DNA of 64,000 bases. It comes from Brachyhypopomus gauderio (taxonomy: Eukaryota > Chordata > Actinopteri > Gymnotiformes > Hypopomidae). The notes below the pieces were generated by a model, which was not told the DNA's origin, did not search any database, and saw nothing but the letters and a program-made list of their open reading frames with translations. The stretch lies in the NCBI RefSeq assembly GCF_052324685.1, contig NC_135222.1, positions 6,859,414 through 6,923,413 of the forward strand. Reading direction: 5' to 3'. Each line of letters opens with the position of its first letter. The first letter of the stretch is position 1. The position numbers were made by a program, and so were the translations under genes. This document shows positions 1,004 through 43,794 of this stretch, in pieces.

Positions 1004-1005
1004 TA

Positions 1006-2153
1006 TAGAAATTTTAAATCTTTTCATAGAGTTCAAATTAGTCAAAGAAAAATGAATCCATGATTTTTATTTTTTTTTATGATGAAAAAAAAATTAAGAT
1101 TTTCCTGGGCACTGTACACTGGCGATAGAAAAAATACAGGATAATAGCCTGCTTAATGGAATTGAAGTATTCAATAAAAGCTAAATGACTGTACCAGTGC
1201 AATACCAGGCTGAAAGCTTGTCAGGTCTAAAACTATGACTAATTCATCTGACACACCTAACAGCAGCTTCTCGTAAAGGTACAACTTCAGCTCAGCATGG
1301 CTTAATGGAAGAAGAGTTTCATTGTTGTTTTTTTTGTTATTGTTTTGTTTTTTTACAGTTCCCCTAAAATGTATTTCTTCATTTTATATCCTTATTTGCC
1401 ACTTGTGGTGATCGGTGGCGCTCGCTGGTAGGCATGTGCTCGTGCTCACCCCGGCTGGAGCATGCTCCTTGCCCCTTAGAGATTTCACTAGCTGCCTCAA
1501 ACACCATTTTAAAAATCGGTTTCCTCATTGAGGTAAAAACATTTGTGTTACATGCTTTCATGTGAGGTTAAAAAAGCTAGTGATGCAAGGGGGCTTAAAT
1601 CACACAAATAAAAACTACCTACAAAAGAAAAACCCCATTGTTTTTCAAGCATTTGTCACAAGCATGTTAATACTGCTAGCTGCTAGTGCTAACAGTGGTG
1701 CTAATCCTGTGATGTTCCCACCTTGCTTAGCCCCTTCACTCTGTGTGCTAATGCTTGCCACAGCCTCTGACTGAGCCTTGGGCAGCTAAGAGTTTCAGTG
1801 AATTTCCACAACCACTGGACAGTATTCCACTGTTGACTACTGAGTGCTTTATTCATTCCCTTCACTCTAAGGGTGACAATGTTTACTACATGATGTTAAT
1901 GCTTCAATTGCGTCATCTGATATGTTCTTATTAGACATAGTATGTTCCTCAGGAAAATAACTTCATACTTACTGCCACTGCTGTTTTTTCATGATTAAAA
2001 CAAACAAACCAAAAAAACAATTGGGATACCTCTTCACTTCCCAAGTTATGTACGTTGAGAAATTTACAATGAAGGGTATGAATAAGGTTTAACCCACAAG
2101 TCTGTCCTACTCATCCTGTCCACCTGTGCCTAACCTAAATTTGTCTTTTACAG
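1006..2153 (+). other. palm1 last intron, remaining part
   Basis: Non-coding sequence between the Tc1 end and the palm1 terminal exon. It is AT-rich with short homopolymers and no recognised element. It closes with a usual branch/pyrimidine region and the acceptor TCTTTTACAG ending at 2153. Confidence 0.6.
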
Positions 2154-2731
2154 TGGTGCATGAGGTACGTGCCGTAGATGGTGCTGTGGCCAATGGCGTC
2201 CACCAGCTGAGCTCCTCTGAGGTGGAGGACCTCATTCACAAGGCTGATGAAGTCTCCATGACTGAGAGCAGCAGAGCTACGTCCACACAGGAGGTGGAGA
2301 AAATCTCCAAGGCAGAGAAACCGGAGGTCGCATCCGCGCAGGCAGGCGTCCCTGCCGCCGTGACGGAGATCACAGGGGTGGAGGCCAAACCCTCCGCAGC
2401 CACCCCGCCCACAGAGGTGGGTGCAGCCAGCGCAGAGAACCCCGTCACCATGGTCTTCATGGGCTACCAAAGCGTGGAAGACGAGGATGAGACGAAGAAG
2501 GTTCTGGGGCTGGAGAGCACCACTGTCACGGCTGAGCTCGTGGTCATTGAAGATGGAGAGAAGAAGGCCACCGCTGCCGCTACCCAGGAGGAGCAGGCAC
2601 CCCCAAACGGAGGCCCCGCCGAGCCGGCCAAGGCCCAGGAGGAGACCGCGGAGGCGCTTCAACCCGAGCCCGCCTCTGCCGACATCAGTGTCAAAGAGAA
2701 GCAGCCGTGCAAATGCTGCACCGTCATGTGA
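2154..2731 (+). CDS. palm1: Paralemmin-1, last coding exon (5' exons outside window)
   Basis: Paralemmin-1 is a prenylated and palmitoylated phosphoprotein of the inner plasma membrane, linked to membrane dynamics, filopodia and dendritic spines. This exon encodes about 192 residues. The block VHEVRAVDGAVANG followed by SSSEVEDLIHKADEV, the ITGVEAKP segment, and the VTMVFMGYQSVEDEDETKK block running into KVLGLES and AELVVIED match the conserved C-terminal half of PALM. The C-terminus is CKCCTVM, which gives a CaaX box (CTVM) with two upstream cysteines for palmitoylation. The exon begins after the acceptor TTTACAG with a codon split 1+2, so the N-terminal coiled coil lies upstream of the window. 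PALM1 rather than PALM2, PALM3 or palmdelphin is chosen from these blocks and from the neighbours misp and ptbp1. The a/b teleost copy cannot be told. Confidence 0.94.
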
Positions 2732-3155
2732 GCGCAGGCACGGTGCCCTGCAGGGACCCTTCCTCACCACGCTACACCGTGACACCATGCCAACGAAACA
2801 ACACCGTCGCAAACACAGAGGAGTGACAACATCTTGCATCTTTTCATCGAAAGCTATTGTTTTCTTCATTTTTACCTTTTATAATTTTTTACTTTTTTTT
2901 TTTTTTGTTTTTTTTTCCTTTGCGTTCATCTGCCGCATGCATTTCTTTTCTGCTTTGGTTTCATTGTAACTGAGACAGATGCTCTCTAGCGCCACCTTCC
3001 AGAAAGAAGGTTGCAGATTTCATTATTTTATGCTCTTGCTTGTTACCAAGCACCGGTCAACACGTGTCTTTCTCTTTTCCAGCTTACACTTCTTACACAA
3101 ATTCATAGGTTTTGTAGTCTTACCTTTCTATATGAAGGACTCTGATATCTCTGTA

Positions 3156-3190
<35 letters not shown>

Positions 3191-6005
3191 CGAATCATTT
3201 ATTTTTAATATATATTTATTTTATGCTCCATTCTTAAGCTCATTGTTTGCAGAAGCATGGTGTGTGAATCGCTCTCTGTTTCTGCTCATATTTGATCTTT
3301 GTCCAAAGCAGACAACACCGGGAGGGGAGGGAACAGTCATCCCATGGCATAGTGCTACACTTCTGACTGATCAAACTGTGAGCAAAGACACAGCCTTGCT
3401 GTTCTACAAGGAGGACTAAAGATAATATGGGATTTCATAAACACATGCTACACTTAAATAATAGGTCACATGTAATGAGATATCAGTCCTGAGCAAGCTT
3501 ACCCATGTATTGATTTCAGGTTGCATGTAAAAGTGCTTGTGTGTGTGTATGTGTGTTTGCGTGCACCAGCATTTGTAATGGTGCTGCCATTTGATTACTC
3601 TGTCTCACACATTCACATAAAAAAAACACACACACATACTGTGAGGCACTACAGAGCAATCCTCGTATCTGGACCTTGTGTTTTAATAGCCCTCCCAGTC
3701 ACACACTCTCACATACACACACACTCTCACACATGCACTCACACACACACACAGTCATGCCTGCTCTGTTCCCTCACTGAGGTCAATTCTGCATAGTTTG
3801 GTTTTATATTCTTGTGTGTCCATTAGGGAGTGGTCCTCTTTAATCTGAGAATTTAAAGAAAATTTAAATAGTATCACTAATGTTAAAGAGAGGGGTCTTT
3901 CATATTGAAAAGTCAGAATGAGGAAATGATTAGATTTTCTCAGTTTTTCCCTGATTCTCACTCTCGCCTCAGTTTATTTGCATTAATTTCTCATGCTTTT
4001 TGATGTTACCTGAAGTCCAGTCCAGTTCAGTTCCTGGCTCATTTTGTATGAATAGCTGATCAAATATCTGCCTATGTAAGTACTTCAACAGCCTTGATCT
4101 TTCTCTGAGGTAGATTGCTTTCATGGAAACAGTGTGTATGTGGGGGGGGTGGGGGTCATGTGGGACAGTGGTGTTGGACGGGTGGGGGTGCGGGAGGGGT
4201 GCCAACTTGCACTGCCTTTACTCTCCTCTAAGACAGTCAGCCCAAGGAGAAATTAACACGGAGAAATGACCAGTTTGCTGGAGCCAGACCTATGCAAGAG
4301 CTCTTCCAGGTAGCCTGGTCAGCAGCTGTTAAATGATGCTTGCGATTGTGAAGTAAGATCCTGGGGTGTTCAGTTCCCACACACCATTACATCTCCTCCT
4401 GAGCCCAGTGGCTCCACAGGGCAACACTGCTGAATGTGGATGCTGAGAATAAATTTGGCATAGAATGTTAACTGGCAATTCAACCAGTTTAACCAAGTCT
4501 CAAAGATGCCTATCACAGTGTAAAAATATTAGCATGCCAAAACCGAAGTTCACATAAAACATGTTGGGTTTTCCTTATTTTAAAAATTCTTTTAGTTTTT
4601 TTTTCTTTTTGTGGTCATTACTTTTTCAGCTGGTGTCAATGGCATATGGCTTGTTGATCTTAGTGGAAGATGTGATCGTTGGTCTGTCTGTAATACCTAC
4701 TCATGTATTATGAGGATTGATTTTATTAAGGATTCTTGTGGTGCTAACTTATCCAAACTGTCATGCAACAAGTTCTTTTTCTAAAATGCATTCTTTGCAG
4801 CTAGCCTTTTGCTCCTGGTAGCAACAATGAGTTACTTTATAGTGTTTGCCTCTGAGTATCACTCCTGTTTTTCTAAATTTAGCATGTATGCTAACAACAA
4901 ATGCTAGCCTTTCTCTTTTGTTGGCTAATTCACTTTTATTTTTTTTATTTTTAGTCATTTATTCTTTGTAAACAGATATGGAAATGCATTATAACGTTTT
5001 TTATTAAGATGTTCGAAATTGCTTTATGCTCTTTCACTGGCACTACCACACTAGTTTGGAGGTATTTGTTTGGGACTCTTGGTTTGTGTCTGTGTGCGCG
5101 TGTAAGCGTGTGCACTTGAGTGCTCTCCTTTTGTATTGGCAGGAATGATGTCTACATAGCTGCACTTATTCTGGTAAGATTTCCTTGGGAAATCCTTGGC
5201 GCGTGCCTTGACACTACTATAGTTCTGACCGTGAGCCAAAGTTGGACGGAAATTATGGAACAGCTACACCTGTGTATCCATGTGAACCGCAAGACACCCC
5301 ATCTGCAGAGACCTGCCATCTCATCCACAAGATCCACACGGTGCGGTGTCTGTGAAGCTTGCTTGTCTGCGCGGACATCCTGATCATGGAGCAGGCCGCT
5401 TACCCTCAACCTTCACCAATATGGCAGACAAGCAAAAGCTGATGGCAGCCATTCTGAGCTTCCTGTACCATCACCTGGACTCACATGTCACTATGAGCAT
5501 TATAGTTACCTCTGATGTTTTTTTTTTGTTTGTTTTTTTTTGCTCAGCAGCGCACCCTAGTGTTCATCAGTACTAACATTCCAGTTCCGATGTGTTCCAC
5601 AGCCCCGAATGCCTTCTTGCCTGGCCAAACGGCCTGGCATCTCTCTTTGTAAACATGCATGCTTTTTATAGGTATATCCACATATCTACATATCCATGTC
5701 TGTGTTCAGTAATGTCTCCCTCTCCTTGTAGCTGAAGCCTCTCCTATCCTCCATAATGTCAGTGATCTAGATGTTCCAATCATTGTGTCTGGGAGCACGG
5801 CCGAAGGAGCGGACTTCCTGCTAGTGTCAGTGAGGTCACTTCCTGTATTGCAGTGAGGCTCTTGGTTGCTCTGACTCCATTTCTTCCTCACGGGGCAGAC
5901 GTCTCTTAGTCGCCATCATGGAAATGAACTCGGGCTCGGGAAGATCTGCTTTCTTACTGACGTGAAAGTGCTGTAGAATGGGTCTGAAACGATATTAAAA
6001 TGTGA
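2732..6005 (+). other. palm1 3' UTR and intergenic tail
   Basis: No coding signal. It begins as the palm1 3' UTR. Candidate polyadenylation hexamers are AATAAA at about 4449 and ATTAAA near 5993; which one is used cannot be decided from sequence. It contains T-rich runs (2891-2920), an (AT)n tract, interrupted CA repeats at 3628-3755 and a G-run near 4142-4152. Confidence 0.45.
3161..3190. repeat. (AT)n microsatellite
   Basis: About 15 AT units inside the probable palm1 3' UTR. Confidence 0.9.
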
Positions 6006-7309: not shown

Positions 7310-8651
7310 TCAACATGTGGAATACATGTCAGAATGGACAGCAAAACCTGTTATGTTGTTTTCACATCTCATTGGGTTTACTGAAAAATACACGTTTTGT
7401 TTTCCATATAAAAATGCTGAATTTGTGTTGGCATGGACAGTATTCATCAATTTGGTGCCAAATCTCTTTGATAGCAGTTGCCAGATCAGCTTTGCAGGTC
7501 GGAGCCTTCTTGTGGACCATTTTTTCTCAATTGGGTTGAGATCTGGACTATTTGCAGGCCATGACATCGACTGAATGTGTCTTTCTCCACGGAATGCCTT
7601 CACTGTTTTTGCCCTATGGCACGATGCATTGTCATCTTTGGAAAATAATTTCATTATCTCCAAACATCTGTTAAATTGAAGGGATGGGGAAAACTGTCCA
7701 AAATGTCAATGTAAACTTGTGCATTGATAGAAGAATTAACCACAGTCATCTCCCCAGTGTCTTTACCCGACATGCAGCCTCATATCAAGGACTGTGGAAA
7801 TTTGGTTGTTTTCTTCAGGCAGTCCGCTTTATAAATCTCATTGGAACGGCACCAAACAAAAGTTCCAGCATCATCACCTTGTACAATGCAGATTCTTGAC
7901 TCATCACTGAAGATAACTCATCCAGTCATCTACAGTCCATGATTGCCTCTCTTTAGCCCATTGCAGTCTTGTTCTTTTCTGTTTAGGTGTCAATGATGCG
8001 TTTCTTTTAGCTTTCCTGTATTGAAATCCCATTTCCGTCAGGAGATTTCTTACGGTTCGGTCACATACATTGGCTGCAGCTTCCTCCCATTTATGCTTCA
8101 TCTGTTTAGTTGTACTTTTTCATTTTTCAAAACAATGAAAATGGCCTTAAGTTATTGTCTTGATGCTTTGAAGTCTTTCTACCAGTACACTTGGCTTTAA
8201 CAACCATCCCATGCTGTTTGTATTTGGTCCATATCTTGGATACAGCTGACTGTGAACAGCCCACATCTTTAGCAACCATGTGTGAAGTTACCTTCTTCAT
8301 GAAGTTTCACAATCCTCTCTTTTGTTTCTAGAGACATTTCTCTTGTTGGAGTCGTGGTTCTTACCACTCCACTTCGTCCAGCAGCCCTCCAAGGTGTCAT
8401 GACTGCAGGTGTTTTTAACTGCAGACTAACGAGCAGATCTAATCTGAGGCAGGTGCCCATTTAGGGAAAGGAAATTGACTGGGTGTGTCCTTATTTTCTA
8501 CCTCCAATTTGAGTGATTCCATACAAGTTGCACTTTGGATTGACCTTATTATTGCATCATGTTTTTGATCTGAGTTTGTTCTACAGAATAAAATGTCTGA
8601 ATGTGTGCTCATCCCAGACTGGTGATTCTATACTTTTTGCCAGGGGTTGTA
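7310..8651 (-). mobile_element. Tc1-like transposon relic, minus strand
   Basis: Reading the minus strand from 8651, the element opens with the terminus TACAACCCCTGGCAAAAAGT. It then shows an N-terminal transposase block (METKERIVKLHEEG-like, near 8300), a middle block with KQKRTRLQWAKER near 7980, and a C-terminal block DDNASCHRAKTV...SPDLNPIEKKW near 7500-7640, which holds the second Asp and the Glu of the DD34E triad. The blocks are in different frames with stops between, so the copy is dead. The terminus near 7310 is not recognisable, so that boundary is the end of the coding homology only. Confidence 0.82.
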
Positions 8652-12611: not shown

Positions 12612-12868
12612 TTAAGAGTTACACACACAGTTAATAGTTAAAATTCTGTAATCACCAAAAGTAGTAAGTAATTTTAACAGTTTGTGCCCTTTAACCATAT
12701 TCAAAAAGGACTGAAATCCTGGTTTCCTGATTTTGCAGAAAGAGACGCCCTTTGTATCAGGCAACCCTCAAGATGGGCACATACTAGTTGACCTATTCCT
12801 GTTGGCCTGCTGCATCACTGGTGCCTGTGTCGTTAGAGTCCCTGCTGGGGGAATCATCCAGGAGAACC

Positions 12869-15800
12869 ATGGGCAGCACTCCTAAACGATGGGTGATGAA
12901 ACCACTCACACCAAAGCTGGAGAAGTCTGACCTACGTCCCATGCTGAGCCCTGGCAGTGAACCACAAGCTCTAGATCAGGGCTGGAGTCCAAACCAGGAT
13001 AGAGGATCTCCTATCTTCAAGTTTGATGCCATCTCAGTGTCTCGATTCCAGCCTGTGACACTGTCAGGCACAAATGGAGAGGGCCCTTTGGACGTGGTGG
13101 TTCATGCTACGCAGGTGTTGGTGTCTGATGAAAGCAACACCAGTGACGACTGGCAACACAGTGATCCCAGCAGTCCTGGGAGTACAGACTCCCACATGGG
13201 CTTCTATTCTTTTGTGGAGGATCCAACAAGCCCAGAGGCAGAGAAGAATGAAGCCTACATGGTTTCGCCTGAGCGACAGGCCAAGCTTTCCACCCTGAAG
13301 GAGAAGAACAGCTTTAAGCTACAAACTTATTCAGGAGACAGAATACCTGAGAAGCTGTTCCAAGACAGTAACGGAGATTCCCTTTACCAGTTAGAGGACA
13401 ACTTGACAGAAAGCAATGGCGACAACAAGCTAGATCGTATGGAGATCATCCGTAGTCAGGCCCCGAGAAAGAATCAAGTACTCAAAGAGCAGTGGAGTGC
13501 TCTGGAGAATCTGGATCTTAGCAAATCTCCCCACAGTCTGGTTGAAGGCTTTAGTTTGCGCTACAGCCCTGCGAGCATGAAACTCCCCAAATCTGAAGCA
13601 GAGCCTGACAGTGTTGACAGCCAGCAGATCGACTTCAATTCAGCACGAAAGCAGTTTCTAATGATGGAGCATTCCAAACATAATCTTTTCCGCAAGGGTT
13701 CTCCTCAAATGCTGACCTCTCCTAGACCATGGGGAAGATCTTCAGTCATAAAGGCTGGCAAGGAAATTGGGATAAACCAGAAGCCAAAGGATGAGCCTGA
13801 CCAGAATCCAATCTCTTCAAAGAGACAAGAAGAGGAGACGGTGACCTTTATTGAGGATTCCAAAAGCCAGATTCAAAGTAACTCGATTGATGACCTGGTC
13901 ACGGGACTCCATAACCAATGTGTGAGCAACACGAGAGATGGAAGCTTGTCCAGTGAACCTTCTGGGTTAGAAAAGAGGAGAACCTCATCAGTATCTTGCA
14001 TGAGCGAAACCCCCATTGAGAGGGAGATTCGAATAGCTCAAGAACGAGAAGAGGACTTGCGCCGTTCGCGGGGAATATCGCACACTGACACTTCAGAGAT
14101 GGTTGAGATCAAGACCAAGCCTATTCTCTCTCAGCCACTGCCACAGACAAAGTCGATCAAAGCCAAAGAGACAAGTAGGGTAAGTTTTCTCATTCAACGT
14201 GAGTTGGAAAGAGTGAATCAGGGCCAAGGCTTTCATGACCGAGGCACTCCACGTGATATGAATGAAAGTACAAAAACATCAGTCTCTGAGTCAGACCAGA
14301 AGCCCACTTTATCCTTGAAGATGAACCCCATAGACACCCCTGATTCAGAAGATGAAACATGGACTGTGGAGCGTTCTGTGTTTGTGGATCAAGAGGATGT
14401 GCCTGACTCCGAAGAGATTCTCTCTCCCTGCTGCCCCCATCGCCACAAAGACGAGACAAAGATTTGGAGGGGCACCCCTCACACCAGTGCTGCAGAAATC
14501 CTAGATGGACATGTCAGAACAAGTTATGCAACCATTTCAAGTCCACCATTTTGGAAGGCTGCACACAAAACAAAAGAGCAAGAGAGAGCATCTTCACCCG
14601 CACATTCTCTGTCCTCTCCTCCAGAACCCGTGAGGAGGATTCGAGCTGAAGGAGCCTTGTCTTATTTGGAGAGAACAAACGAGTGGCCTTGCATGCAAAA
14701 TGCCCCAGACGTAATCCGCAGGGAGATCGAGGAGGACCTCAGACGGGAGCAGGAGCTTCAGGAGCTGCGGGAGACCAACAGCCTGGCCCTCTCAGTGGAC
14801 AGGAGCGCAGGCATCTTGGAACCCTCCGTGCCATCTCTCATTAATTTAGAACACAAGTCGGAGCAAAGCAATGCTGACAATAGTCTGAAAACTGCACCAA
14901 TCACTTCACCAAACATTTCTCAGGAGAACCTGCAAGAGATAGATGCATCTCTTCCAGACAGACAGAGGACAAATGAAAGTCTCTTATCCCCCTCAAACGT
15001 GGATTCCAGCCCAGTCTCCCGCCCATCATTGGCAGGTATAAAGATTTAGCTTGTTCACTATTGGTCGAGCGGAGAATTGGGCTTTTGTAAATATAAAGTC
15101 TTCAACAGTTGCAGGGAACAGGAAGGGCAAATGTATTCTTTTCAGAGGTCACTGTTAAGAGTCAAATTCCAAATGAATACTGGTAAGCGATGCAGATAAT
15201 AATCATTGGGGCTAAAGTCTTTGATATGAGAGCGATATCAGAGATCTACATGCAGACTAAGCATGTGTGTGGAATGTGCCTGTACATTCTTCACTCAAAA
15301 GAGACTAATTACATCTATAAGGTGGATGTTACATCATAAACCTACGATTATGTGTGTTTTGTTCTCTGTTGATACTCCTCTACCCTGTCTCTGGTTCCTC
15401 GCATATTTTTGTCTTGTCACTTATATTTTCTTCTTTAAAGGTAACACATTTAGCATTTGATATTTTTGAATTATCATTCCATAAAACTTCTCAATGAATG
15501 CTCCAGTAGCTGACCTGGTAGAGAAGGTAAAGTACTAACAAGGTCATAGTTTTGATTCCCAGAGAACTGATAAAGAACACAAATGGGACAGGGTAATAGC
15601 ATGCACCAAATGCTGATAATCTCTGATTCTAAAAATTCCATCCATGGAATTTACAGCAGTTATATGAGAGGAAGTGCAACATTTATATGCTGTATCTTAC
15701 CAACTCACTGATTTACAAAGCAAGTAACTGATTAACTGTGTTACTTGTTTATGGATGTCAGTTTTAAGAGATGAAATAGCTTACTTCATTAGTTTCTGAA

Positions 15801-20183: not shown

Positions 20184-20311
20184 TATTGATCGTGTGGCTC
20201 ACTGCAATAGATGTTTCTATATTATATATATTATTGTATTTATTTACTTATTTTTATTTATATTTAAATTTTTTTAAGGTGAACAATACGTGAGTCATCC
20301 CATCTGATATA

Positions 20312-23300
20312 ATGGAAAACCTTTTGAATATGGTGGAACCAGTCGTGGTTATCCATAAACTGGGGACCTCCTTCTTCGAGATGGCGCTTACCCTGACAGT
20401 GTACAACCGCTTGCTGGAAAAAGCAGGTGGTGAGGCAGAGCAGGTGGAGCAGGTGGAGCAGGCGCAGGCAGCCTCCGCCCATTTCTTTCTCCTTGACTCC
20501 ATAATCTCTACCATGGCGGCCATGTTGTCCATCGTGCTGCTGGGGCGTGTTGCAGACCGGCGGGGTCCTAAAGTGTTCGTCATCGTCTCCCAGCTGGGCT
20601 CAGTCTTGGGAATGTGTTTCCTGCTGCTGTTCCTGTACTGCGACCTACCTGTGGAGTTCCTCTTCCTGGGCACGGCCGTGTACGGCCTCTGTGGGGGCTC
20701 TCCGGCGTATTGGGCCGGCGTTGTGGCGTTGGCGGCGCTCGGCTCCGGGCCGAGGTCCCGTACGCTCAAGCTCAACGTGGTGGACATGTGTGCGGGGGTG
20801 GCCGGGGTCCTGGGTGGCCTGCTCTCTGGATACGTATACCGAGTTGGCCACCAGGGGGCGGTGCTGCTCGTTACAGCCATCGCCCTCAGCACGCTCTCGC
20901 TGCTGCTCTCTACTTTCTTCCTCTCTTCCCCCAAGGAAGACAAGGAGGAAGAGGAGGAAGAGCGGCCGCTGATGGGGCCGGCGGGAGGAGGCCGTCCCGA
21001 CTCCGTAGCGGGCGTCCTCCTGATGACGGCCATGGTGGTGTTTATGCTGGGCATGGTGGGGGCGGAGGACGTCCTCACCCTCTACGTCCTCAAGCCACCT
21101 CTGAGCTGGGACTCTGTGTGGGCGGGCTACGGCAGTGCTGCCACTAACGCCATGTACGTGAGCAGCTTCCTGGGCGTACTGGCGCTGTCCAGGGCGCTGG
21201 GGGACACGCCGCTCGCCCTGCTCGGCATCGTGTCCAACTGCACCGGGATGGCCATCATGGCTTTCACGGAGGAGAGCTGGATCTACTTCCTGGGTGAGTG
21301 GTACAGAGGGGTAACAATCTCTCCCTGCATGCCATGATCCAAGGAACTGCCACTTGACTAATGCCAGTACTACAGTGGCATTAATATAATCAAATACCAT
21401 TTTCTAAAGCCTCACAGTACTGACATGCAAAAGAACTGGCTCGATCCAAACAAAAAGCTTATAAAAGAGCATGAAAAAGCTCTCATTGCAAGTAATAAAA
21501 GCAATGAGATATTATGAAAGCAGTCATTGCTTTGAGGAACTATAATTTATGCTTTGCTTCCAACAGCTCGAGGAATCATGATGTTTGCTTGTGTTCCCAT
21601 GCCAACACTACGAGCAATGCTTTCCAAAGTTCTGGACACACAGCAATATGGTAACGCTTCAGATACGCCACAAAAAGCAGACACGTTATAACAAGAGGAG
21701 AAACACCCACATGAGAATAGATTAAGATGAAATAACAATATTCTGTATGGTCCAAAATAATATAACCAATAGACTTACTCATGAGCCATGGGTCAAAAAA
21801 GGTAGAAAACTAAAAACCAAATGTATAAATAATAAAAGTAATCTATAAAGTGAGTGAAAAAAATGTTAAATATTTATCATGACATAACCTGAAAATAATA
21901 TATTAAAACACATTTGTAAAATATAAATAGTACAAAAAAGCTGTCTTAATATAGGCCTAACATTTCTTAACTGCTGACACATTCATTGTGGAAAAGCGAC
22001 TCGTTCTATTGAAGTGTAGACATCTCAACACTTCTGTTTTGTGGTTTCATTCTTGGCACATGTCGTCTACAGCGATCTTAAGCAATCACATGATTTATTT
22101 CGGCACTCTAGAGTTGAAGTTCAAATATAAATACTTTAAGAAATGTCAAATAACATTAAAGATGAATATCCTGAGACACAGATGAGAAACACGGAGTGTG
22201 AAAACGCTCCACTGTGATTCTCGCCGTAGGCCGCGCATTCGGCCAGCTGCAGCTCGCCCTGGCTGTGACAGAGCTGGTGTCGACGGTGGTGTTCTCCTCC
22301 ATTTACCCGCTCACTCTCCACAACTGCAGTGGCCTGTGCTTCCTCCTCTCCTGCGCCATCAGCTACCTCAGTGCCATACCCATCCTGTGAGTGTCCCCTC
22401 CCACACAGCAGAATGAGCATCACTGGATTAAGATGATGGTTCAGTACCGTGCTGGTGCGCTAGGGTGCACAGGCAGAGGTTTAAATTGCATTTGACGAGA
22501 ATGCTTTCTCAGTAGGGACAATTGCACATCTACCTGAAGCTTGATGAGTGTCTGATTACACTTGTTTAAGCAGTCTCAAGTAAGACTGTGGTTTCATTCC
22601 ATCACTGTGAAACTAACCCTGAATATGATTTGTTGTGATGTTGAACAGCAGCAGTGATGATTGTTGCTTAGAGTTCAGAATCACTCCTACGTTGGATTAT
22701 GTTACAAACGCAAATCAGTTTTAGTTTTAGAATCAGTCCATTAATGCTTTACAATAATTTAGAGCTAGTTTCTCAAAATGTATATATGTGAATGTTTCTC
22801 CAGCACTGTGTTAGGATATGTCTTGAATGCAGAAAAATTCAGTTTTGGGTATCAATACCTGCTTTGTTGTACTAAATAAGAGGATGTGTCATACCTTATA
22901 TCTGTGTCATATCACCTCTGTTCAACACACAAGGAAACAGAACACACTGCAGTATAACTAATGTGTATAGAAAGCAAACTGATAACATAGTTGGGCAATT
23001 CGATTCATTCACACAAAACAGGTAAAGTTCCTGTTCTAATTGGACACATTTTACTCCTGTCCCCGGCATGCTTATGCAAAGGATTTAAAACTAACCGTGC
23101 TGCATTATTTCCCTTTTCTTCTGTTTTTTTTTTTTTTTTTTGCTCATGTCAAAGGTCATAACCCTTTATTAAATGGGTACAAAATGCTCTGTTTGCAGAT
23201 ATCTGAAGTTCAGGCAGAGGAACACTGGGTGCCCTGACACACACGTACAGGAACAGGAAGCTGCGTGTGGCCTGGGTCAACCCAGCCATGATTACAGCCA

Positions 23301-28426: not shown

Positions 28427-31400
28427 ATGGACGGGTAAGTTTATTGTTGATTTTTTTCCGAATAAAAATTATGTTGTTGTTTATTGCATCGCCATTCACT
28501 GTTCTAAGGATATTTACCGGGTAGATAGAAGATAAATTGTTTTGTTATGTAGTAAGTTTGCTTGCAAACGCTGTTTCGGGTTGCGATGGAAACAAACTCT
28601 GATGGTGGTAGCTAGCTGGACGGCTAGTTCTCCACGTACTGAGGTACTTTGGAAGTGTTCAGCCACCTAGCTAACTTTACTTTTCTTACTTACATCACTA
28701 AGTTGCTGATTTTATTCCCGGGTTTGCATGTTTTGATCGTTTGTTCGATGTTTGTTTGTTTTTTTTTTGCCAAGTTAGCTATTTGTAAAAAAAAAAAAAA
28801 AACTTTTTGTCGTCTGTGTTTTGCCGTCACCGTCTTCAGCCCTGCTCACAGTCCAGCGAGGCTGCACACCTTGGCCATCATGGCCACTTGTTGAATTGCA
28901 CTAGTAAAGATCCAGAATTTCAAAAGTGCTAGGTAGTAACTTTACTAGTCAGCTATCAAACCTGTCAGACATAATGAATTCGTTTTGCCAGGAAGTAAGA
29001 GATTAGCTAGACAGTAATTAGCGAAATTCTTTCTCTTTTTGTTGTGGCACTGACTTCTCTTTCTCTGTACAGCCGCCTAGAGACTGAATTGTATCCTATG
29101 GGATCAGGTTACGCAGAATTAGAGTAAGTCCTCATGTTTTTTTCCTGCTTGAAGTTAACTAGTGTTTAATGAAAGAATGCATCTATAAGTTTAGACGACC
29201 ATATCATATTTTTAAACTGTCAGTTTTCAGCCACAAATAGATCCGTGTGGTTGATTGTTTCCTTCTACACTTCTTCTCAGTGTCTCAGGCCATTGCTGGA
29301 CCATTTTATTGTTTTTTTTCGCTTAGAAATGCTGACCTGTTGTCATAAGCTGGCTTAGATATTTGAATATCACGTAACACCATTTATACAGCTCCCTTTT
29401 ACACACAATTTGTCCCAAACCCGATATATATAAACTTGGCGCTGATTAACTATTTATTTAGTTACAGATAACAAACCAGTTGCATACAATCATATACATA
29501 TACCTATACCCTTAAAATCTGAAATGGTGCAACTCTAGTGCTGATCTGTTTTCGGGTTTGATTAAATATTTTATGTTTGTCGGTCCGCAACAGAAGCGCT
29601 TCAGTTGCTGCGTTTCCTGTACAATGGGGAGAAACAGGATGTGGGGGTTAATGTTCAACCAGCCATGGCTGAAATACCGCTCATATTTGTGAGGGGAGAT
29701 CTGTGGGAAAGAAGGCTTGGATGCTGTTTTCACTATGTAAACCCTTCCCATTATATCTGTAGTGGGAAAACATCGTTCTTGTTTGCAAAAAAAAATATTG
29801 GTTGAGGCGAGATTCCAACTTTTGGGGATTTATTAAGATATGATGTACAAGATATATTTTATGTACATATAAAATGTATATATTCATATACTTAAACTCA
29901 AAGAAGATACCAGGTGAGTAACTGCAGTGTACTGTAGTAAGAGGTAGGACCTAGGATCTGTCTAAAGCGTAATGCCTTGTTTCTCTGGCAAGTTTGTAAA
30001 CAATGTTGGTTTCTCTCTGGACTTATCAGAACATACTGTTCTACTTTTAAGTATTTGCATGAGAAGTTAAAGGTCATCTGCTTCTTCCCAATTCCAATGT
30101 GAGCTTTTTCTCCTTCGTTTGAAATGTACTTCTGTTGGCATTTTGCATCACAACCTTTTTCTCATTTTTTCTTTATATTTCTTGCAGTGTTGTCCATGAA
30201 ATTGCAGTTGGTACAAAGGTAGGCCTTTTATTCCTTTGCTCTGTGTTTGATTTATATATTTTTTAACAGTATACCACTAAGCAACTGTAAGAAGGACGTG
30301 AGGGGTTTTTGTTGTTGGACAATGGCTCTGTTCCTGAGAGCTCATGTTCTCGCTAGCCGTCTGTCTGTTGCTGAGGTGTACCATATCACTGCTCCCCTCA
30401 AACCAGCCTGACTTGTTTCACCGTAAATATAAATGCCATGATGAAATTGGACTGGAATTCCCAGACCAACGCCTTTTAGTGGTCATTTCGTCTTTTGCTG
30501 CTAAATGTATTTTTGCACAAAGGTATTGTCTGCAAGTGTTTTTTGCAGTACTGCTTTAAGGTATTTCCAGATTACCTATGTTTATAAAAGCAAAGAGAAT
30601 CTCCACTGTCTCTTGGGTCGGCTTTCAAAGGTTATTGTGACGTGCGTGTTCCTACCTAGTCTTTAATGAAAGATAATCATCTGTGGTATGTGGGTAGTAA
30701 AGGGGGCCTACAAGATTCAGAACAAAGGAGTGATTCATAGACACCATTAACATGACTTTGGGCCAGAGAGTGCTCTAAAGTGACCTGAGATTCTCCTGGT
30801 TTGTTTTAGGATATTTTAAGCAGGCAATAATGTAATGTTAGAAAGACCATGCACATTTTTCAGTTTGGGGCAAACTGAAAGTTGAATCAAATAAAGTGTG
30901 TGTGTGTGTTGTACAGTTTGTCTCCTGCTGTCCGTTTTTGGCCTGCAAGGATCATTTCAGGAGAGGGAGCTTGAGATCTGAAATAAGAACTATGGGAGAG
31001 ATTTTCCTCTTCATTTTAATAAGTTAAATGGTGGTTAAATATTTTGTGGTGAAGTAAATATAATTGGGGGTCTAAAATAATATTTTGTTCTATAAACCAG
31101 GTTTACTGGTTTTGCAAGTTGACATGTAAAAATAGATTTGTAATGTGTGCTTTTTAGACTATTGAAGGTTCCCCTCCTTTTAGTTTTATGGTTGTGAATT
31201 TAAGTGTCCTCCTCTGGCTGGATTGATTCAGATGCACCGAGGGTTTCTCCCTGGTGTTTCGTGATTGTTTTCACCTGTGTTGTCAGGTCTGCCTCGGGGA
31301 TGGTCGGCATTATGCTGCCTGATTGTTCCTTAGCCCTGCAAGTGAACCCATTTTAAAAGCATTCCTCAAAAATGGGCTCGGGTGTTGACACGGTGACATG

Positions 31401-34400
31401 AATGGAAGCTATTCATCACATGCAAATATGTTTGCATCTCCCCTCTGGACACACATGTTCCTCTTGTGTTTGTTCAGCAGTGCTGATTAGAGGGAATGTG
31501 GGTGGGGGGAAGTGCTAATGGACTCGGTTGATACCACTGGCCCACGTTTTTATTCTCATTGTAAGTCTAACATGTAACACATTATTTACTGGGTGAACAT
31601 CCTAATTTTTCTTGGAATGTTGGGTTGATGGCAAAACACTCACGTCTGGGATGGAAACTACATTCTCGAGTGTTGGGACAGACGCACACCTGGTCCACCG
31701 AAGACAAACGGCCTTGTGTATTCAGGCCACAAAGTCCTGGGTTGGGTTTCAGTCACCTGCACCCACAGGCATAAGGTCTCCATGGTGAGAGAATGGCAAT
31801 CAGGGCTGCCGTGGTAACGGCCCCATTCGTGGCACGAATTGCCCACGTCTCCCGCCTTCCTGCGTTTCTCCACACCTTGCTGATCCCTTTAACCTGGTTT
31901 CATTCCAGTTCACAGTCCCCACCCAACAAGTGCAGCAAATTCTTCTGTTTGTTCCTTTTACCTGTTGAACAAACTCTTACCAGGTTACATATTCTGCGTA
32001 GGGACTTTAAGTCCTCTTTGACACAACCTTAAGCTACTCTTAAGTGTAACTCAACAGGTTTGACATCCAAGACTCTGTGGTCTTCCTCTTCCGTTTTCTG
32101 AAGGTTGGCCTGAAGACTCGACAGTGGCTTTATGGCTATAAGTCGGTGTGGAGTGGTGAGAGAACTTTGTTTAGCAGTGCCGTAGCCCAGACCATTCCCC
32201 CTCCTCTTTTACCTCATGCACCCTAGTGGTACCCTCCCCCTCTTCCTAGCTGCATATGGTTCTAATTGAGCCTTGTGGCAGTGGAATTTTAAATGTGGCG
32301 GAGGGTATATGTGCATGTGGCCTGCTCAGTTAGGTGATTGATCCCTCTGGTCACGTCTAATGGTCTCGCAATGCCTGCAGAGTATTTTGAGGTGTATGTC
32401 TGTTCTGTATTCACTGTGACTTTCAGATATCTAACCGCTTGTTAAACTTGCATACTGGAACATTTTGCAGGCATGTGTGTGTGTGTGTTTATTTGCATGT
32501 CTTTGGAATGGAGATGATCTTCTGTCTAACTTGTATTGGGAATGTAAGTGGACTGCGTTGTCTGGTGGTGGTTGACCAAGCTTGTTTGCTTAGAACTGTA
32601 GCGATCGCTCAACTAAATCGCTGTGAAAACAGCAACTGAATCCAAATGTGAGCTCAGTTGCTTTTTTTTTTTTTTTTTTTTTTTTAAGAATATATATATA
32701 TATTTCTCAGCAGTCAAATAAATGAAATTGGATTGGAGTCGTGTCCTAGTGGTAGAGACGGACTGATGTGAGTCTGGCCACTCATTCCCTCTGCCTACTG
32801 ACCCAGAAACTCCCCCACTCCCTTTAAAACACCAGTTAATTCCTCATTCCTGGGCTGGTGGGGCTGGGGAAGGTTTAGGGCTGGTGCTTGATCTGTGGAC
32901 CCACCCTGCGCGCAGGAAGTCTAGATGTTGTCACATTGCCCACTTCCGTTCTGGCTTACAAACCGTGTAAAATCTAGCCCATGGCTGTCCTTATTTGGTC
33001 AGCTAGCTCTGTCTCGCTGGATTGTGACTTCTCAGCAGCTTCCTGAAGCTGAATGTTTCACCATGTCTGTTCTTGTTCCTGCACTGCAGTGACCTGTCTA
33101 CTTACTGGATGCTGTGTTTGGTGTCTGTTCAGTGGCGTGTGGTGATTGGTTGACTCGGGGGGGAGGGGTCACGCACCACAAAAAAAACTTGTCTGTCAAA
33201 GATTAATATGTAATCTGTTCAATTCACGATCGCTTTCCTTTGAACTTCCTTCTTCTCCCCCTCAGAGAGGATCTGACGAGCTTTTCTCCTGCGTTTCCAA
33301 CGGGCCATATATCATGAGTTCGGCAGGTATATATTTCCGAGGCACACCCATACCGCTGCCCTGAGCATGCGTGTGTGTCGCCAGACTGGCGTAACCGTGT
33401 GGTCTCCCATCACAGCGAATGGCAATGACAGCAAGAAGTTTAAAGGTGACATCAGAAGTCCCGGCGTTCCGTCCCGCGTCATACATGTGCGCAAGCTTCC
33501 TGCTGACATCAACGAGGCAGAAGTCATCTCTCTAGGCCTTCCCTTTGGCAAAGTCACCAACCTGCTCATGCTGAAAGGAAAGAACCAGGTATTCTTGCCA
33601 ACACCTCCCAAAGCTATCGGAATAGGACTCGTGAAGGAGAGAATTGATATTGCAGTTTGTTATGAAAGCTGTCGGGATAGCAGCCAAATAGGAAGTATTA
33701 CAACTATTAAGGGTTGTAGGGTTTGAAAATGTTCTTACAAAAGGATTGGGGGAGGGGGTCGGTATTTCTTGTATGTAACTATTAATTTTTTGTCTTCAGT
33801 ACTCCCTCTGAATGCTGATAACACCGTAGGCCTGTTTTGGAATGAAACAAACACTAAACTCTGGGTGGCACGTGAGCTAAGCTAGACTTTGTTTGCCTAG
33901 GCTTTCCTTGAGATGAACTCTGAGGAGGCAGCACAGACGATGGTCAGTTACTATTCGTCAGTCACGCCAGTCATCAGGAACCACCCCATCTTCATGCAGT
34001 ACTCCAACCACAAGGAGCTGAAGACGGACAACTCGCCAAACCAAGTGGTGTGTGTGTGCGTACGCGTGTGTGTCTGCCCCCCCCCCCCCCCCACTGCTCC
34101 AAGACTACGTACAGGCTCTCTCTCCCTTTTATAAACATCCAGTCATATTTCTTATTGGTCCTCTTGGTGTAGGAATGGAATAATATGAAACCAAGTGAAA
34201 GTAATCTCACTTTTTGCTGTCATTGCATTATGGTGCTTGTAACCTAAATATTTTCCAAGTTGAAAACGGCCCTAGTAAATCCTGTTTGGAAAGCCCCACA
34301 TCCCATAATGTCGTGTGTTCCTCTAGCTGCTGGAAACGCTGCCACTCCTACAGCTTTAGTGGAGTGTTGCTATGAGCCTGCGGCCTTGTTTACCGCCGTG

Positions 34401-34505
34401 CGTGTATCTTGTGGTTTTCTGTACTGCGTGGCCCAAAATTCCTGCCCTCCCTTTCTAAACACTGCTTCCCTGCAGACCTCACACGGTCTCTCTCTCTCTC
34501 TCTCA

Positions 34506-34540
<35 letters not shown>

Positions 34541-37500
34541 TCCACAGTCAAAAGCACAGCAGCCCTGTCCACCCCCTCCTCCTGCCATCAGTTATGTTAA
34601 TAACGCCATTCAATTAAGCGGAAGGCATTTCTTTGTTGCGGGCTGCCGCGAGTGAATCTGTTTATCAGCAAATGGGAGAAACCACTGGTTTCCCTGTTTT
34701 GTTTGCAAGAATTGTAACGAGGACGCATTGTTAGGCAAACGTCCTGTGTGCCTTCTGAAACAGGACAGGAAGTAGGATGCGTGAGCTTGCTTGTTTCTGC
34801 TGCGACTGAAACGCTCCCTTCTCTGTCCCGCCCGTGACGGCAGAGAGCACAGGCCGCGCTGCAGGCAGTCAACGCTGTCCAGACGGGCAGCATGGCCATC
34901 GCTGGTGTGGACCCCACCGGGGGCTCCGGCCCCAGCCCTGTCCTCAGGGTCATCGTGGAGAACCTCTTCTATCCAGTCACCCTGGATGTCCTACACCAGG
35001 TAGGCGCCCCCTTGTGGCCGCTGTGCCATCAGCAGGAGTTGTGCCTGCCTGTACAGAAGGGTTTTTAAGTATAGATGAACCTGACATGCATTTGTCGGAC
35101 ATCTTGGAGGTTTCTTTTTTTTTTTTTTTTTTATAACCCAAGTGTTTTGTTTTAATAGATTTTTTCCAAGTTTGGCACTGTGCTGAAGGTGATCACTTTT
35201 ACCAAGAACAACCAGTTCCAAGCTCTTCTGCAGTTTGCTGATGGGCTTACTGCTCAGCATGCTAAGCTGGTGAGTGGTGCCACCTAGAGGTCAAACATTT
35301 TAACACCGTTTTCTGAATTGGGGATGGTGCATTCTCAGCAGAACACATGACATGAAGACCTGACCTGTTAGAAAACCTGTCGGCACCATGGAAATATTGT
35401 AATCGACCTTTAGTTTTCATAAATGTTTCATTTCATCACGCAAGTAATGTAAATGCATTTAGTTGGTCAGAAGTTGCACGTGCCGTCCTGTAATGTCCGA
35501 CGCGTGGCTGCTGTTGTCCAGGCGCTGGACGGCCAGAACATCTACAACGCCTGCTGCACCCTGCGCATTAGCTTCTCCAAACTCACCAGCCTCAACGTCA
35601 AGTACAACAACGACAAGAGCAGAGACTACACGCGCCCCGACCTGCCCACAGGCGACGGGCAGCCGGCCCTGGATCATCACGCCATGGCGGCCGCCTTTGG
35701 TAAGACACCCCCCCCCCCCCCCCCGCTCCGCCCTGTCATTGTCTGACGCCGAGCGTTAAGTGCTCTCCGCTCACGCAGTTGTGCCTTGTGGCCCACGTGT
35801 CTGTCCATGCGCAGCTACTCCTGGGATCATTTCTGCCGCGCCCTACGCCAGCGCCCACGCCTTCCCCCCGGCCTTCGCCATCCAGCAGGCTGCAGGTACG
35901 TACCCTCCGCTCTCCTCTCTACACACTTGCTTTGTGACCGGGCTCGTATACAGCGAGCGAGGCCCGGAATGGGCGGACTTCTCTGACTGGACTCTCTTGT
36001 CTCAGGCCTGGCCATGCCCGGCGTTCATGGAGCCCTGGCCTCCCTGGCCATCCCGGGGGCGGCCGCTGCAGCAGCCGCAGGCAGACTGGGCTTCCCCAGC
36101 CTCGCCGGAGGACACTCCGTCATGTTGGTCAGCAACCTGAACCCTGAGGTTAGAGACACGGCGCTTTACTAAACGCGTCCATGGGGGAGGGGGTTCAGAC
36201 TTCAAAGCACCAGCGTGCTCGGTTGTAGACTTCAAAACACTTGAAGCTGGAGAGTAACGCTCCTTTTTATCTTTAAGTGCTGGTCTAGACCAAATATCTT
36301 CAAAGTGAGCTCATTCATGTAAAGTTTTGTCATCACGTTAATCAGAAATACCATCCATGTGTTTTCATATGTGAGGGGTATTTCAAAAAGTTTTTCCAGC
36401 ATATTTAGCCCTACAAAATATAATGTAAGTTCCAAGATTGCAGAGCTAGGGGCTTTGGCTGAATAAATCAAGTTCTAGAAAGTTTCTATTTTGGTGAATA
36501 CAATGTTTATTCTAGATGGCACTTTGAATTTCAGTTACAATAAACTTTTTTGTTTTCCTCCCAAATATTTACCCTTTCTGTTTACTTAGCTTTAGTTTTG
36601 TAATTCCTTTTCCTAACATTCCTAAGTTAATTTGAGCTTCATGAATATTTTCTGCTGACCCCTTTTAAAAAGAGTATTCTAATCCATTTATACAAGTTCA
36701 TTGTGAAGTATAATTCTTTCCTGAAAGTTTGAGAACATACTTTGTGAAAGAACAAATGAAAGCAGCTTGCTGAAGAGATGCAGTCCCACCACTGGGAGTT
36801 GCTTTCTCAAACCCCTTCTAGCTTTCCTTCATGTACACAAGTGGCAAACTTGATGAACTTGAAGATGGTTTGATTATTCTTTTAAAGTGGTTCAGCAGTA
36901 AGGCTTACCTTTTGGTTGTCTTGAGGAATTATATGCTTTATTCTTTAATTATGAAAAAAAACAGCACCTTCTTCTGTTGGATAAGTTTCTTTAAAGTTAA
37001 CTTGACCGCTATTGTATTTCTGTATGTGTACTGACCTTGTTTTTTTTTACCTCCTCTTTCTCTCCCTCCCCATTCCCCTTATCCCATTCTTATTTTATTT
37101 TTTATTTTTGAAAACCATATCTTCCTACACACCTCACATTTTAACCACACACACATATGTATACGTTATGCTCACACAACACCACACATTATTACACACA
37201 CACACACACACACGCATGTGTATACATTATGCTCACCCTCAACACCACACATTTATTCCTCACACTGTTATGTTTACCAATCCCCCTCCTCTTTCTGCTC
37301 CCAATCCATTAACCATCTTCATGATCCAACCACCGTTTTTCGCCATTTCCCGTGGAACTGCCTCCTCGCTGTGGATATGTTGAACCTCCATTCTGCCTCC
37401 GATCTTTTCCTGTCCCTTCCTCCCTCCGCTGCCTTCCTCTGCTGTCCTCTAAAGAGAGTTACGCCCCAATGCCTCTTTATTCTTTTCGGTATGTTATCCT

Positions 37501-39182
37501 TAGCATCTTTTTTGTTATCACTTGTTTGTTCTGTTCTCTTTCGATCTCTTCCCTCACAAGGCAGTTTGTTCCTAAAACACGAGTGCTTCTGTGGTTTCTG
37601 CCGTTTGTGTGTTGAGGGGACCAGGAAGCCAAAAAGCTGCAGCATTCCCGCCAGCACTAACGGCTGGAGCGCTAGTGACCCTGCCGAGGCACCTCAGGCA
37701 GGAGCACATGCTGCATCTTTTTGTGCTTTAATGAAAGAGTATTTACCATTTTCAGAATGCATGCTTTTGGAAATTTTGCTTCTGTTTTTGCATGTCATGA
37801 GGGAAGCTTTTAAACTTTGGTTAATAGTCAAGACTCCTGATTTTTTTCCATTTTGTAGAAGAGCCTTAATTTTCACCCAACCTTTTGCCCTTGAGCTAGC
37901 TTATTATTTTTTTCAGCGAGTTTCATTTTCTTGAGTCTGTTATTCATATATAAAGGCCACACACAAGCCCGTTTCTCTTCCAGTCTGCAAAAGTGTCCAC
38001 ACGTACCCTTCCCCTGTCCTCTCGGTTAGCGTTTTCACTTTGACAAATATCCTAAACCCTGTCCTTATCACTAGAATTACTGAAGGCCTTTGTCTTAGAC
38101 CTGTACCTAGGTCATGGAAATGGAGGACATGTCCACCTTTTTAATAGTTAACGTAGGCTAGCTAAGATTTCATTGACTTATTTCGGTAGCTCTTCGTGTA
38201 CTTCTGTGAAGCCGCACTCATTTGATGGAGTGTCTTGATTGTGACCTGAAGTTTTTTGTAGGGCTCAGATGTGTTAACATGGTTGTAAATGTGTTTTTAC
38301 ATTTCTAGTCTGATTTATGAGCTTTCCTCTTCTGTCTAGGTGTTTATGGTGATGTGATAAGAGTGAAAATTATGTTCAACAAAAAGGAGAATGCCTTGGT
38401 TCAGATGGCCGATGCCACGCAGGCCCAGCTAGGTAACAGCCCAACCTTGGTTATTAACACTATTACATTTCACATGTTTGATTCTTTTAACAACACATTT
38501 CTCATGATGTATAATCAAATATTTCATATCTTAATTTCTCTTTTCATAGCCATGAGCCATTTGAATGGACAGAAGCTGTATGGGAGGGCACTGCGCATCA
38601 CATTATCCAAACACACGACTGTTCAGCTGCCCCGTGAGGGCCACGAGGACCAAGGGCTCACCAAAGATTACAGTAACTCTCCCCTTCACCGCTTTAAGAA
38701 GCCTGGCTCCAAAAACTACTCCAACATCTTTCCTCCCTCCTCAACACTGCACCTCTCCAACATCCCGTGAGCAAAAACTGTTCCTCTCGCTTTAGGTTAT
38801 GTTGAATTTAGTTGAGATAAAGAGAAAAAACAACGATGCAGTGTACTTGTATTTGATTGGTTGCGATTCTGTCTCTGACAGGCCTTTAGTTGTTGAAGAT
38901 GATCTTAAGATGCTGTTTGCCAGTTCTGGTTCTCTGGTCAAGAACTTTAAGTTCTTTCAGTAAGTTCCTGACAATTTTCTCATACTTGGTTCATACTTTC
39001 CTTAATATTCATGCCTTTCGTTGCTTTCTAATGCATGTCACCTTTTCAGGAAGGACAGAAAGATGGCCTTGATTCAGATGGGATCAGTGGAGGAAGCGAT
39101 TGAATCCCTTATCGAGTTCCACAACCATGATCTTGGAGAGAACCATCATCTTCGTGTGTCTTTCTCAAAATCCACCATTTGA
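28427..39182 (+). CDS. ptbp1: Polypyrimidine tract-binding protein 1, 16 coding exons, 563 aa
   Basis: PTBP1 (hnRNP I) binds UCUU/CU-rich RNA through four RRMs and represses alternative exons. Exons: 28427-28434, 29073-29123, 30188-30218, 33266-33326, 33416-33588, 33901-34044, 34844-34999, 35159-35269, 35522-35699, 35815-35895, 36006-36148, 37455-37488, 38340-38432, 38550-38766, 38882-38959, 39050-39182. All are GT-AG and all phases agree. The N-terminus has MDG, then [18 protein letters not shown] and KKFKG, which match the bipartite nuclear localisation region. RRM1 is about 71-150 ([26 protein letters not shown]). RRM2 is about 187-262 ([20 protein letters not shown]). RRM3 is about 369-443 ([28 protein letters not shown]). 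RRM4 is about 486-562, ending VSFSKSTI. The linker has an alanine run. PTBP1 rather than PTBP2/3 is chosen from sequence and the palm-misp neighbourhood. Without exon 2 the product is 546 aa. Confidence 0.98.
29073..29123 (+). other. ptbp1: ptbp1 exon 2, probable 17-codon cassette
   Basis: Flanked by CTGTACAG and GTAAGT. Both ends have the same phase, so the 51 nt ([16 protein letters not shown] plus a split codon) can be included or skipped without changing the frame. The human PTBP1 protein I know goes directly from MDG to the VPDIAVGTK segment. Confidence 0.7.
30219..33265 (+). other. ptbp1: ptbp1 intron 3
   Basis: Intron of about 3 kb. It holds a poly-T run at 32660-32686 and otherwise moderately T-rich sequence. 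No further splice-bounded coding block was found. Confidence 0.75.
34487..34539. repeat. (TC)n(AC)n compound microsatellite in ptbp1 intron 6
   Basis: A short CT run passes directly into about 19 AC units. In the transcript this is a CU-rich stretch of the kind PTB binds. Confidence 0.9.
35815..35895 (+). other. ptbp1: ptbp1 linker exon equivalent to mammalian exon 9
   Basis: 81 nt, phase 1 at both ends, encoding [20 protein letters not shown] and following residues of the RRM2-RRM3 linker. Its position and sequence correspond to the exon that mammals partly skip to make weaker-repressor isoforms. The short preceding intron contains a C-run at 35708-35724. Confidence 0.8.
37035..37600 (+). 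promoter_or_regulatory. ptbp1: CU-rich autoregulatory zone around the 34-nt ptbp1 exon
   Basis: From 37035 to 37454 the sense strand is dominated by UUCU, CCUCUUUCUC, CUUCCUCCCUCC and UCUU-like runs, with a CA repeat in the middle. CUUUUUUGUUAUCACUUG and UCUCUUUCGAUCUCUUCC continue after the exon to about 37556. These are PTB-type sites on both sides of exon 37455-37488. Skipping that exon shifts the frame and gives a stop at 38355-38357. Confidence 0.8.
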
Positions 39183-42749: not shown

Positions 42750-42898
42750 TATTAGAGTTACGTCATCAAAACACAGGAACAGGAAGTAACTTAGAAACGA
42801 GTTAGGTAGCTAGCTGACTAGCTAACTGAACGGTTTCTCTAAAAACCCTGAAAAGTGACACGCTTTTAAAATATCTGTCTGGGAAATAAGTCCTCGCA
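42750..42898 (+). promoter_or_regulatory. fam174c: fam174c promoter/5' UTR
   Basis: A CRE/ATF-like TTACGTCATC (42758-42767) and an ETS-like AGGAAGT (42781-42787) lie 110-140 bases before the start codon, in a TATA-less region. Confidence 0.55.
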
Positions 42899-43794
42899 AT
42901 GAAACTTCTAGCTTTACTTTCAGTATATTTCTTGCTGGCAGTTTCGTTGGCTGGAAAGCCCGTTACGTCTCCGGGTATCGCTTCTAACAAAACGACGAAG
43001 CCCGAGAACATTTCGAGCAGCGGCGCTCACACGACCCCGGGCTCTACTAGAGGTAAGGGGATGGGCCAGGTTGTGGACAGCTCTATGCTCAAGAGGACTC
43101 TGTATGTCATCATCGGCGTCACCATCATCGTAGTGCTTTATTTCCTCGTTCGAGCAGTCCGGTAAGTAGCTGGCCAGCCGACCTCGTTTACAGTCCCCAT
43201 GTTGGTGAACTTTGAGAACTTGGTGGATCAACACAAACATTGGCGCGTCCTTCCATCCGTATGTCCTTCTGCCTGATCTTATTCAATTAACCTTTCACGA
43301 TTGTGTCACTTTAGCCTGAAGAAAACGACAGTACACAGGAAAAAATATGGACTTTTGTCAAATTACGACGACACCGTAGAAATGGCACATCTGGAAAGCG
43401 ACGAAGAGGACACGACTGTGTATGAGGCGAAACCCTTGAGAAGGTGAGACAGACGTGCCAGACAAACGAGGCTTGTGCATGTAAGCACAGAGGTGGATAT
43501 TCCAACTTCAGAAGGTAAAACTCCTTCCCAGGATTTTACTCAAGCTTGCTGGATTTTTTAATTGGTGCAAGCCAGGTAAAATTAGTGGAATCAACACAAT
43601 CCAAGAAGCCTGAGCAAAATCGTGGTGAGGACTTTTACTTTCTGAACCTGTAATGTCAACCTCTGTGCAAGCACTTGTCCTGCCACTCAACCATGTTTAA
43701 ACTTTGGACCAAGGCTACTTAAAATAATTGTAGCGTATGATGTTGACAATCGTGAAGTTTTGCTGAACTGTCTAATGTGTGTTTTATCAGATGA
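42899..43794 (+). CDS. fam174c: FAM174C-like single-pass membrane protein, 131 aa
   Basis: Exons are 42899-43161, 43315-43443 and the last four coding bases at 43791-43794. The start ATG opens a signal peptide (MKLLALLSVYFLLAVSLAG), followed by a Ser/Thr/Asn-rich lumenal region with N-glycosylation sites NKT and NIS. A single TM helix, TLYVIIGVTIIVVLYFLVRA, comes next, then a short basic-to-acidic tail with RKKYGLLSNYDD, MAHLESDEED and VYEAKPLRR. The RLKK...YGLL...EMA.L.SDEE tail pattern fits FAM174C better than FAM174A or B. FAM174A-type proteins are Golgi/plasma-membrane proteins of poorly known role, so function here is not asserted. The family's three-exon layout is kept. The terminal Arg-stop is the same with or without splicing of the last intron. 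Confidence 0.93.

Follow-up and report, generated by a model that had tools for sequence, protein, structure and literature searches.

Anatomy of the putative autoregulatory cassette exon of ptbp1 in Brachyhypopomus gauderio and its recurrence in paralogous genes

Autoregulation of PTB, a master splicing repressor, has been described in human PTBP1, in which exon 11, a frame-shifting exon of 34 nucleotides (nt) with a pyrimidine-rich flank, gives an early stop when it is skipped, and feedback on this exon by PTB itself has been published. In Gooding 2006 (PMC1431707), the human exon is preceded by an AG exclusion zone, i.e., the interval from the last upstream AG to the acceptor AG, of 381 nt, with a UACUGAC branch point at −351 that was proven by mutation. 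For Fugu PTB exon 11, the same paper gives a zone of 590 nt and predicts the branch point at −566, as its authors had noted earlier (citing Wollerton 2004), and for exon 10 of human nPTB/PTBP2 it gives a zone of 438 nt with a predicted branch point at −389. Minigene experiments described in Spellman 2007 (PMC1940037) demonstrated repression of human exon 11 by PTB and nPTB, and the same source assigns a conventional branch point, 21 nt upstream, to exon 10 of human ROD1/PTBP3. A 2020 review (PMC7764535) records the loop as observed in Xenopus laevis and in Fugu rubripes, and another report treats ptbp1a and ptbp1b of zebrafish as expressed genes (PMC8162057). Here we describe the corresponding exon in a 64,000-nt stretch of the genome of the fish Brachyhypopomus gauderio (G000:C12:6859414-6923413, hereafter the window). 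As judged from its sequence and from analogy with the human system, it is very probably an autoregulatory cassette exon of ptbp1, at which PTB would drive skipping and the skipped transcript would undergo nonsense-mediated decay. Because the Fugu exon and the Xenopus/Fugu loop have already been published, the switch is a known one, including in fish, and the present study is confirmatory and introduces no new mechanism; the sequence-only reading of the window, from which this study started, was silent on the fish case being already in print.

The host gene is identified as ptbp1 because a solved-structure search with its RRM3-4 region favored human PTBP1 over PTBP2 (374.8 versus 334.7 bits, in a list without a PTBP3 chain and with a hand-joined query protein carrying two extra residues) and because it lies between a paralemmin gene upstream and a FAM174-like gene downstream. 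Its exons from 33416 to 39182 (the plus strand of the window is meant unless otherwise stated) encode 512 residues of a protein that contains RRM domains and is incomplete here, the exons before 33416 being excluded. In the spliced frame, the exon at 36006-36148, which has AG/GT edges and encodes a linker and the start of RRM3, ends in phase 0 after SNLNPE. It is followed by the 34-nt exon at 37455-37488 (acceptor ctctaaag|, donor |gtatgt), the equivalent of human PTBP1 exon 11, which encodes 11 residues within RRM3 and shifts the frame. The next exon, at 38340-38432, is thrown out of frame by skipping: joining 36148 to 38340 yields SNLNPE-VFMVM-stop, and the premature TGA at 38355-38357 lies 75, 292, and 370 nt ahead of the three remaining junctions. 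The first of these distances exceeds the approximately 50 nt expected between an early stop and a junction of such an exon, and two further junctions lie beyond. The last three coding exons (38550-38766, 38882-38959, and 39050-39182, together spanning 38550-39182) carry the normal frame to its stop codon. The 34-nt exon, the phase-0 end of the exon before it, the VFMVM-stop skip product, and the three junctions past the stop had all been proposed in the sequence-only reading, and each of them was borne out when the frames were joined.

The intron in front of the cassette exon contains an AG exclusion zone of 456 nt (36997-37452), and no other AG-free run in the window, whichever strand is read, comes near it, the second longest being 204 nt. 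At the 13 remaining acceptors in the model of the gene, in which the boundary of one early exon (e2, ∼30189-30220) is only approximate, the zones span 13-108 nt. First-order Markov sequences modeled on the intron never reached 456 nt (0 of 2000; longest run, 259 nt), and among 100 sequences modeled on the whole window the longest AG-free run was 189 nt. The zone holds one UACUGAC only, at 37029-37035 and 32 nt from its start, and the adenine at 37034, i.e., at −421 from the exon, is the predicted distant branch point. Because the window holds many copies of the heptamer (13 matches versus 7.4 expected), its significance comes from its placement and from its recurrence in the paralogs described below. 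No adenine at all is found from −52 to −5, and the gene consequently has no conventional branch adenine. With a predicted branch adenine well over 100 nt upstream and the heptamer both present, the exon may belong to the distant branch point class, and use of the adenine at 37034 may be supposed from the human case. Human exon 11 and the exon studied here share the zone and the UACUGAC; the zone is longer here and includes a CA-rich stretch, and the function has been shown in human and is presumed here. The sequence-only reading had overlooked this zone with its distant UACUGAC, the strongest feature of the locus. RNA structure that might shorten the gap between the branch point and the acceptor was also considered, but found no support in the 165 intronic nt next to the exon, the sole stretch folded, which folds no better than its shuffled versions (z +1.18; equal or better folding in 178 of 200 shuffles).

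A protein search covering the whole genome (796.5 Mb in 840 contigs) gave exon matches at four further loci, plus one weak match on contig C23. The four loci, which we examined over 9-10 kb each, are named after their contigs: C16a (L013), C10 (L014), C130 (L015), and C16b (L016). The best solved-structure matches make C16a PTBP1-like (197.0 versus 184.2 bits) and C130 PTBP2-like (212.8 versus 193.1 bits), and C16b is grouped with C130 as ptbp2-like since the exons of the two encode the same 11 residues. The C10 gene scored 198.4 bits with PTBP1 and 191.9 bits with PTBP2, in a list that contained no PTBP3 chain, and we take it to be ptbp3-like on its residues. In each of the five genes, that of the window included, a 34-nt exon fits at the corresponding place. 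The paralog exons were placed from genomic sequence alone, by a fixed-length pattern of 34 nt after viewing the frames in L013, L015, and L016 and by eye in L014, and AG/GT edges fit at each of them. Four of the five genes have a long zone (456 nt in the window, 409 in C16a, 407 in C130, and 401 in C16b), whereas that of the ptbp3-like gene spans only 50 nt. Every long zone contains one UACUGAC, which lies 32, 34, 33, and 37 nt past the zone start in the same order, or at −421, −372, −371, and −361 relative to the exon. Skipping would place the stop 72 nt ahead of the next junction in C16a, 66 nt in C130, and 66 nt in C16b, but in C10 the distance would be only 33 nt. For C16b, the phase of the exon before the cassette was assumed because that exon was not found, positions 1-3651 of the locus reading N. 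On the sequence level, all four genes with long zones share the same switch anatomy, i.e., the frame-shifting 34-nt exon with the distant UACUGAC. The two ptbp2-like genes resemble in this respect exon 10 of human nPTB/PTBP2, their counterpart in a paralogous gene, and the window gene resembles Fugu PTB exon 11, which represents the same gene and arrangement in another fish and, as far as published figures allow the comparison, differs in its lengths. The exception of the ptbp3-like gene is an expected one because the branch point of human ROD1/PTBP3 exon 10 is so close to its exon; the two share the 34-nt exon at the same place and are both unlike the window gene, the human branch point being conventional and the fish zone short. 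The ptbp3-like gene can be regarded as a natural control, which suggests that the architecture has been kept selectively.

A long AG-free zone could also arise as a by-product of simple repeats, without any selection, and the CA-rich runs located between 37143 and 37251 of the zone would agree with such an origin. So would the other AG-free runs of at least 300 nt found outside the zones in L013-L018 (304 nt in L013, 665 nt in L016, and 301 nt in L018), all of which are tandem repeats by eye. However, the paralog zones of 401-409 nt largely lack the CA-rich stretch and do not look like tandem arrays by eye, the same UACUGAC stands near the start of each of them, and the Markov sequences of the intron never attained the length of the window zone, so we consider an origin from repeats extremely improbable.

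Conservation of the intron was assessed with blastn. Between the window and C16a, a match of 79% identity at 37286-37517 (E 2e-51) includes 198 intronic nt around the exon, among them the part of the upstream intron at 37286-37454, whose conservation also shows in alignments of four paralogs, and another match at the branch point covers 56 nt of the window at 80%. Conservation of intronic sequence between the two genes is concentrated in these places, for seven other exon matches include just 5-22 intronic nt. Exceptions are found in the last intron, which a single weak match spans with 104 intronic nt (68%), and in a T-rich stretch at 35111-35153, where two short matches are out of gene order; L013 lacks the complete sequence of the first two exons of the model, and the introns there fall outside the comparison. 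The window gene and C130 align over approximately 95 nt around the exon only (78%), and the match between C130 and C16b (488 nt, 77%) covers the entire zones of both. These data bear on the idea of constitutive inclusion of the exon in this fish, with the inherited distant branch point and tract being needed for it after PTB sensing was lost. Conservation that extends so far past the splice sites is not readily explained in that way, nor is the retention of the long zone in four genes, though the 34-nt exon of the ptbp3-like gene manages with a short one, and we regard constitutive inclusion as very unlikely, even when the modest density of PTB motifs described below is counted in its favor.

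The tract from the predicted branch point to the exon (37036-37454) is 70.6% pyrimidine, a value matched by none of 6318 windows of 419 nt taken every 20 nt on both strands without overlapping the tract. The sequence-only reading had described ∼420 nt of CU-rich sequence here, which holds for the overall composition but not for its distribution: the part adjoining the branch point (37036-37110) is 88% pyrimidine, while 37111-37260 is CA-rich and only 59% pyrimidine. Core PTB tetramers (TCTT, TTCT, CTCT, and TCTC) occur nine times in the first 150 nt past the branch point, a count reached by 6.4% of 150-nt windows. The 150 nt downstream of the exon (37489-37638), where UCUU runs had been pointed out before, contain 11 of them (reached by 3.4% of such windows) and form a candidate repressor site.

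Several observations weigh against autoregulation by PTB at this exon. The tract as a whole has 17 core tetramers, a number above average but reached by 12.2% of 6360 windows, because of which PTB motif density was dropped as the chief proof; the final 150 nt before the exon have five, a number reached by 27.7% of 150-nt windows. In the first 100 nt downstream of the exon, the nine core tetramers of the window gene face three, four, and five in C16a, C130, and C16b, respectively, and seven in the ptbp3-like gene. Both the modest density in the tract and the failure of the paralogs to retain the downstream cluster would be understandable if the exon were constitutively included. Moreover, the CA-rich stretch of the window zone is mostly absent from the paralogs, and the other long-zone genes do have adenines near the exon, at −44 in C16a, at −38, −29, and −20 in C130, and at −29 in C16b. 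Even in human cells, the change in exon 11 inclusion on PTBP1 depletion in one survey was 0.03, small and non-significant albeit of the expected sign (PMC6547761). Another report does describe a shift of exon 11 in human fibroblasts on PTBP1 knock-down (PMC12618068).

Nevertheless, the anatomy of the locus, which comprises the exon, the frame, the stop and the junctions behind it, the zone, the heptamer, the lack of near adenines, and the recurrence in paralogs, is best explained by PTB-driven skipping coupled to nonsense-mediated decay. If the human system is taken as the model, the spliceosome would use the branch point 421 nt upstream of the 34-nt exon, and the long pyrimidine-rich stretch, together with the stretch past the exon, would serve as PTB-binding sites. 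Abundant PTB would then block recognition of the exon so that the flanking exons are joined, the resulting frameshift would stop translation five codons on, ahead of three remaining junctions, and nonsense-mediated decay would destroy the transcript; when PTB is scarce, the exon would be included and the protein made. The feedback loop proposed in the sequence-only reading is supported to this extent, since the features it needs are present, recur in the paralogs, and fit the work on human, Fugu, and Xenopus, and we infer PTB binding, skipping, decay, and feedback in this fish from the human system.

Whether PTB itself is the principal repressor is a separate matter, because the switch could be chiefly under cross-regulation by Ptbp2 or another factor such as Esrp1, with self-repression being minor. 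Esrp1 reportedly takes part in the regulation of the exon in Xenopus. Genes resembling ptbp2 are present in the genome, and nPTB is equal to PTB in repressing human PTB exon 11 in Spellman 2007 (PMC1940037). Feedback by PTB itself is, however, on record for the human gene, and cross-regulation is compatible with autoregulation and does not exclude it; as the chief mode of control we consider it unlikely. Within the zone, mixed-base blocks at ∼37320-37334 and 37364-37375 contain columns that do not vary among the two ptbp1-like and the two ptbp2-like genes. Since these four genes, and not the ptbp3-like one, keep one switch, it is conceivable, though we put this forward tentatively, that any PTB protein could damp all four at once and that the conserved blocks may bind a separate regulator. 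The comparison of paralogs provides a tidy confirmation of a well-preserved switch, and confirms, in a further fish and across duplicated genes, that a precise intron architecture is retained for dose control of this repressor. No paper with a five-gene comparison in one fish was found among the matches listed, most subscription journals lying outside the literature searched.

Other features of the loci were recorded in passing. The windows richest in CU tetramers lie near 48200, 55100, and in the 61600 region (59-61 hits per 419 nt) and are probably CT microsatellites. With a possible switch like that of ROD1 exon 2 in the ptbp3-like gene in mind, AG-free runs of at least 200 nt were listed in L014, L017, and L018, in which exon 2 was not located. 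L018 has runs of 301 and 280 nt, repeats by eye, and L014 has a TTG-rich run of 231 nt. On the minus strand of L018, a CU-rich AG-free run of 201 nt (from ∼8951 down to 8751) lies upstream of the first coding match of the ptbp3-like gene. The 665-nt AG-free run of the ptbp2-like gene (L016:6737-7401) is a tandem array with a period of 25, beginning shortly after an exon match that ends at 6706. At gathering thresholds, Rfam models had no match in the window, and the exact exon pattern gave none in viral_contigs, a check for stray vertebrate DNA.

Upstream of ptbp1, the window contains a paralemmin coding stretch at 2093-2731 (Pfam match of 175.8 bits), an open reading frame of 753 amino acids at 12788-15049 without a Pfam match, which we presume to be MISP-like, and a coding stretch for an MFS transporter at 20294-21337 (61.9 bits). 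Downstream, a FAM174-like membrane protein is encoded at 42890-43165, with a score of 23.7 bits that is under the Pfam cut-off of 27.7. We take human PALM and PTBP1 to be adjoining genes as well. The open reading frame at 265-561 has no Pfam match and presumably resembles Tc1, and the one at 7313-7705 on the minus strand carries a DDE_3 endonuclease match of 32.9 bits, a transposase remnant.

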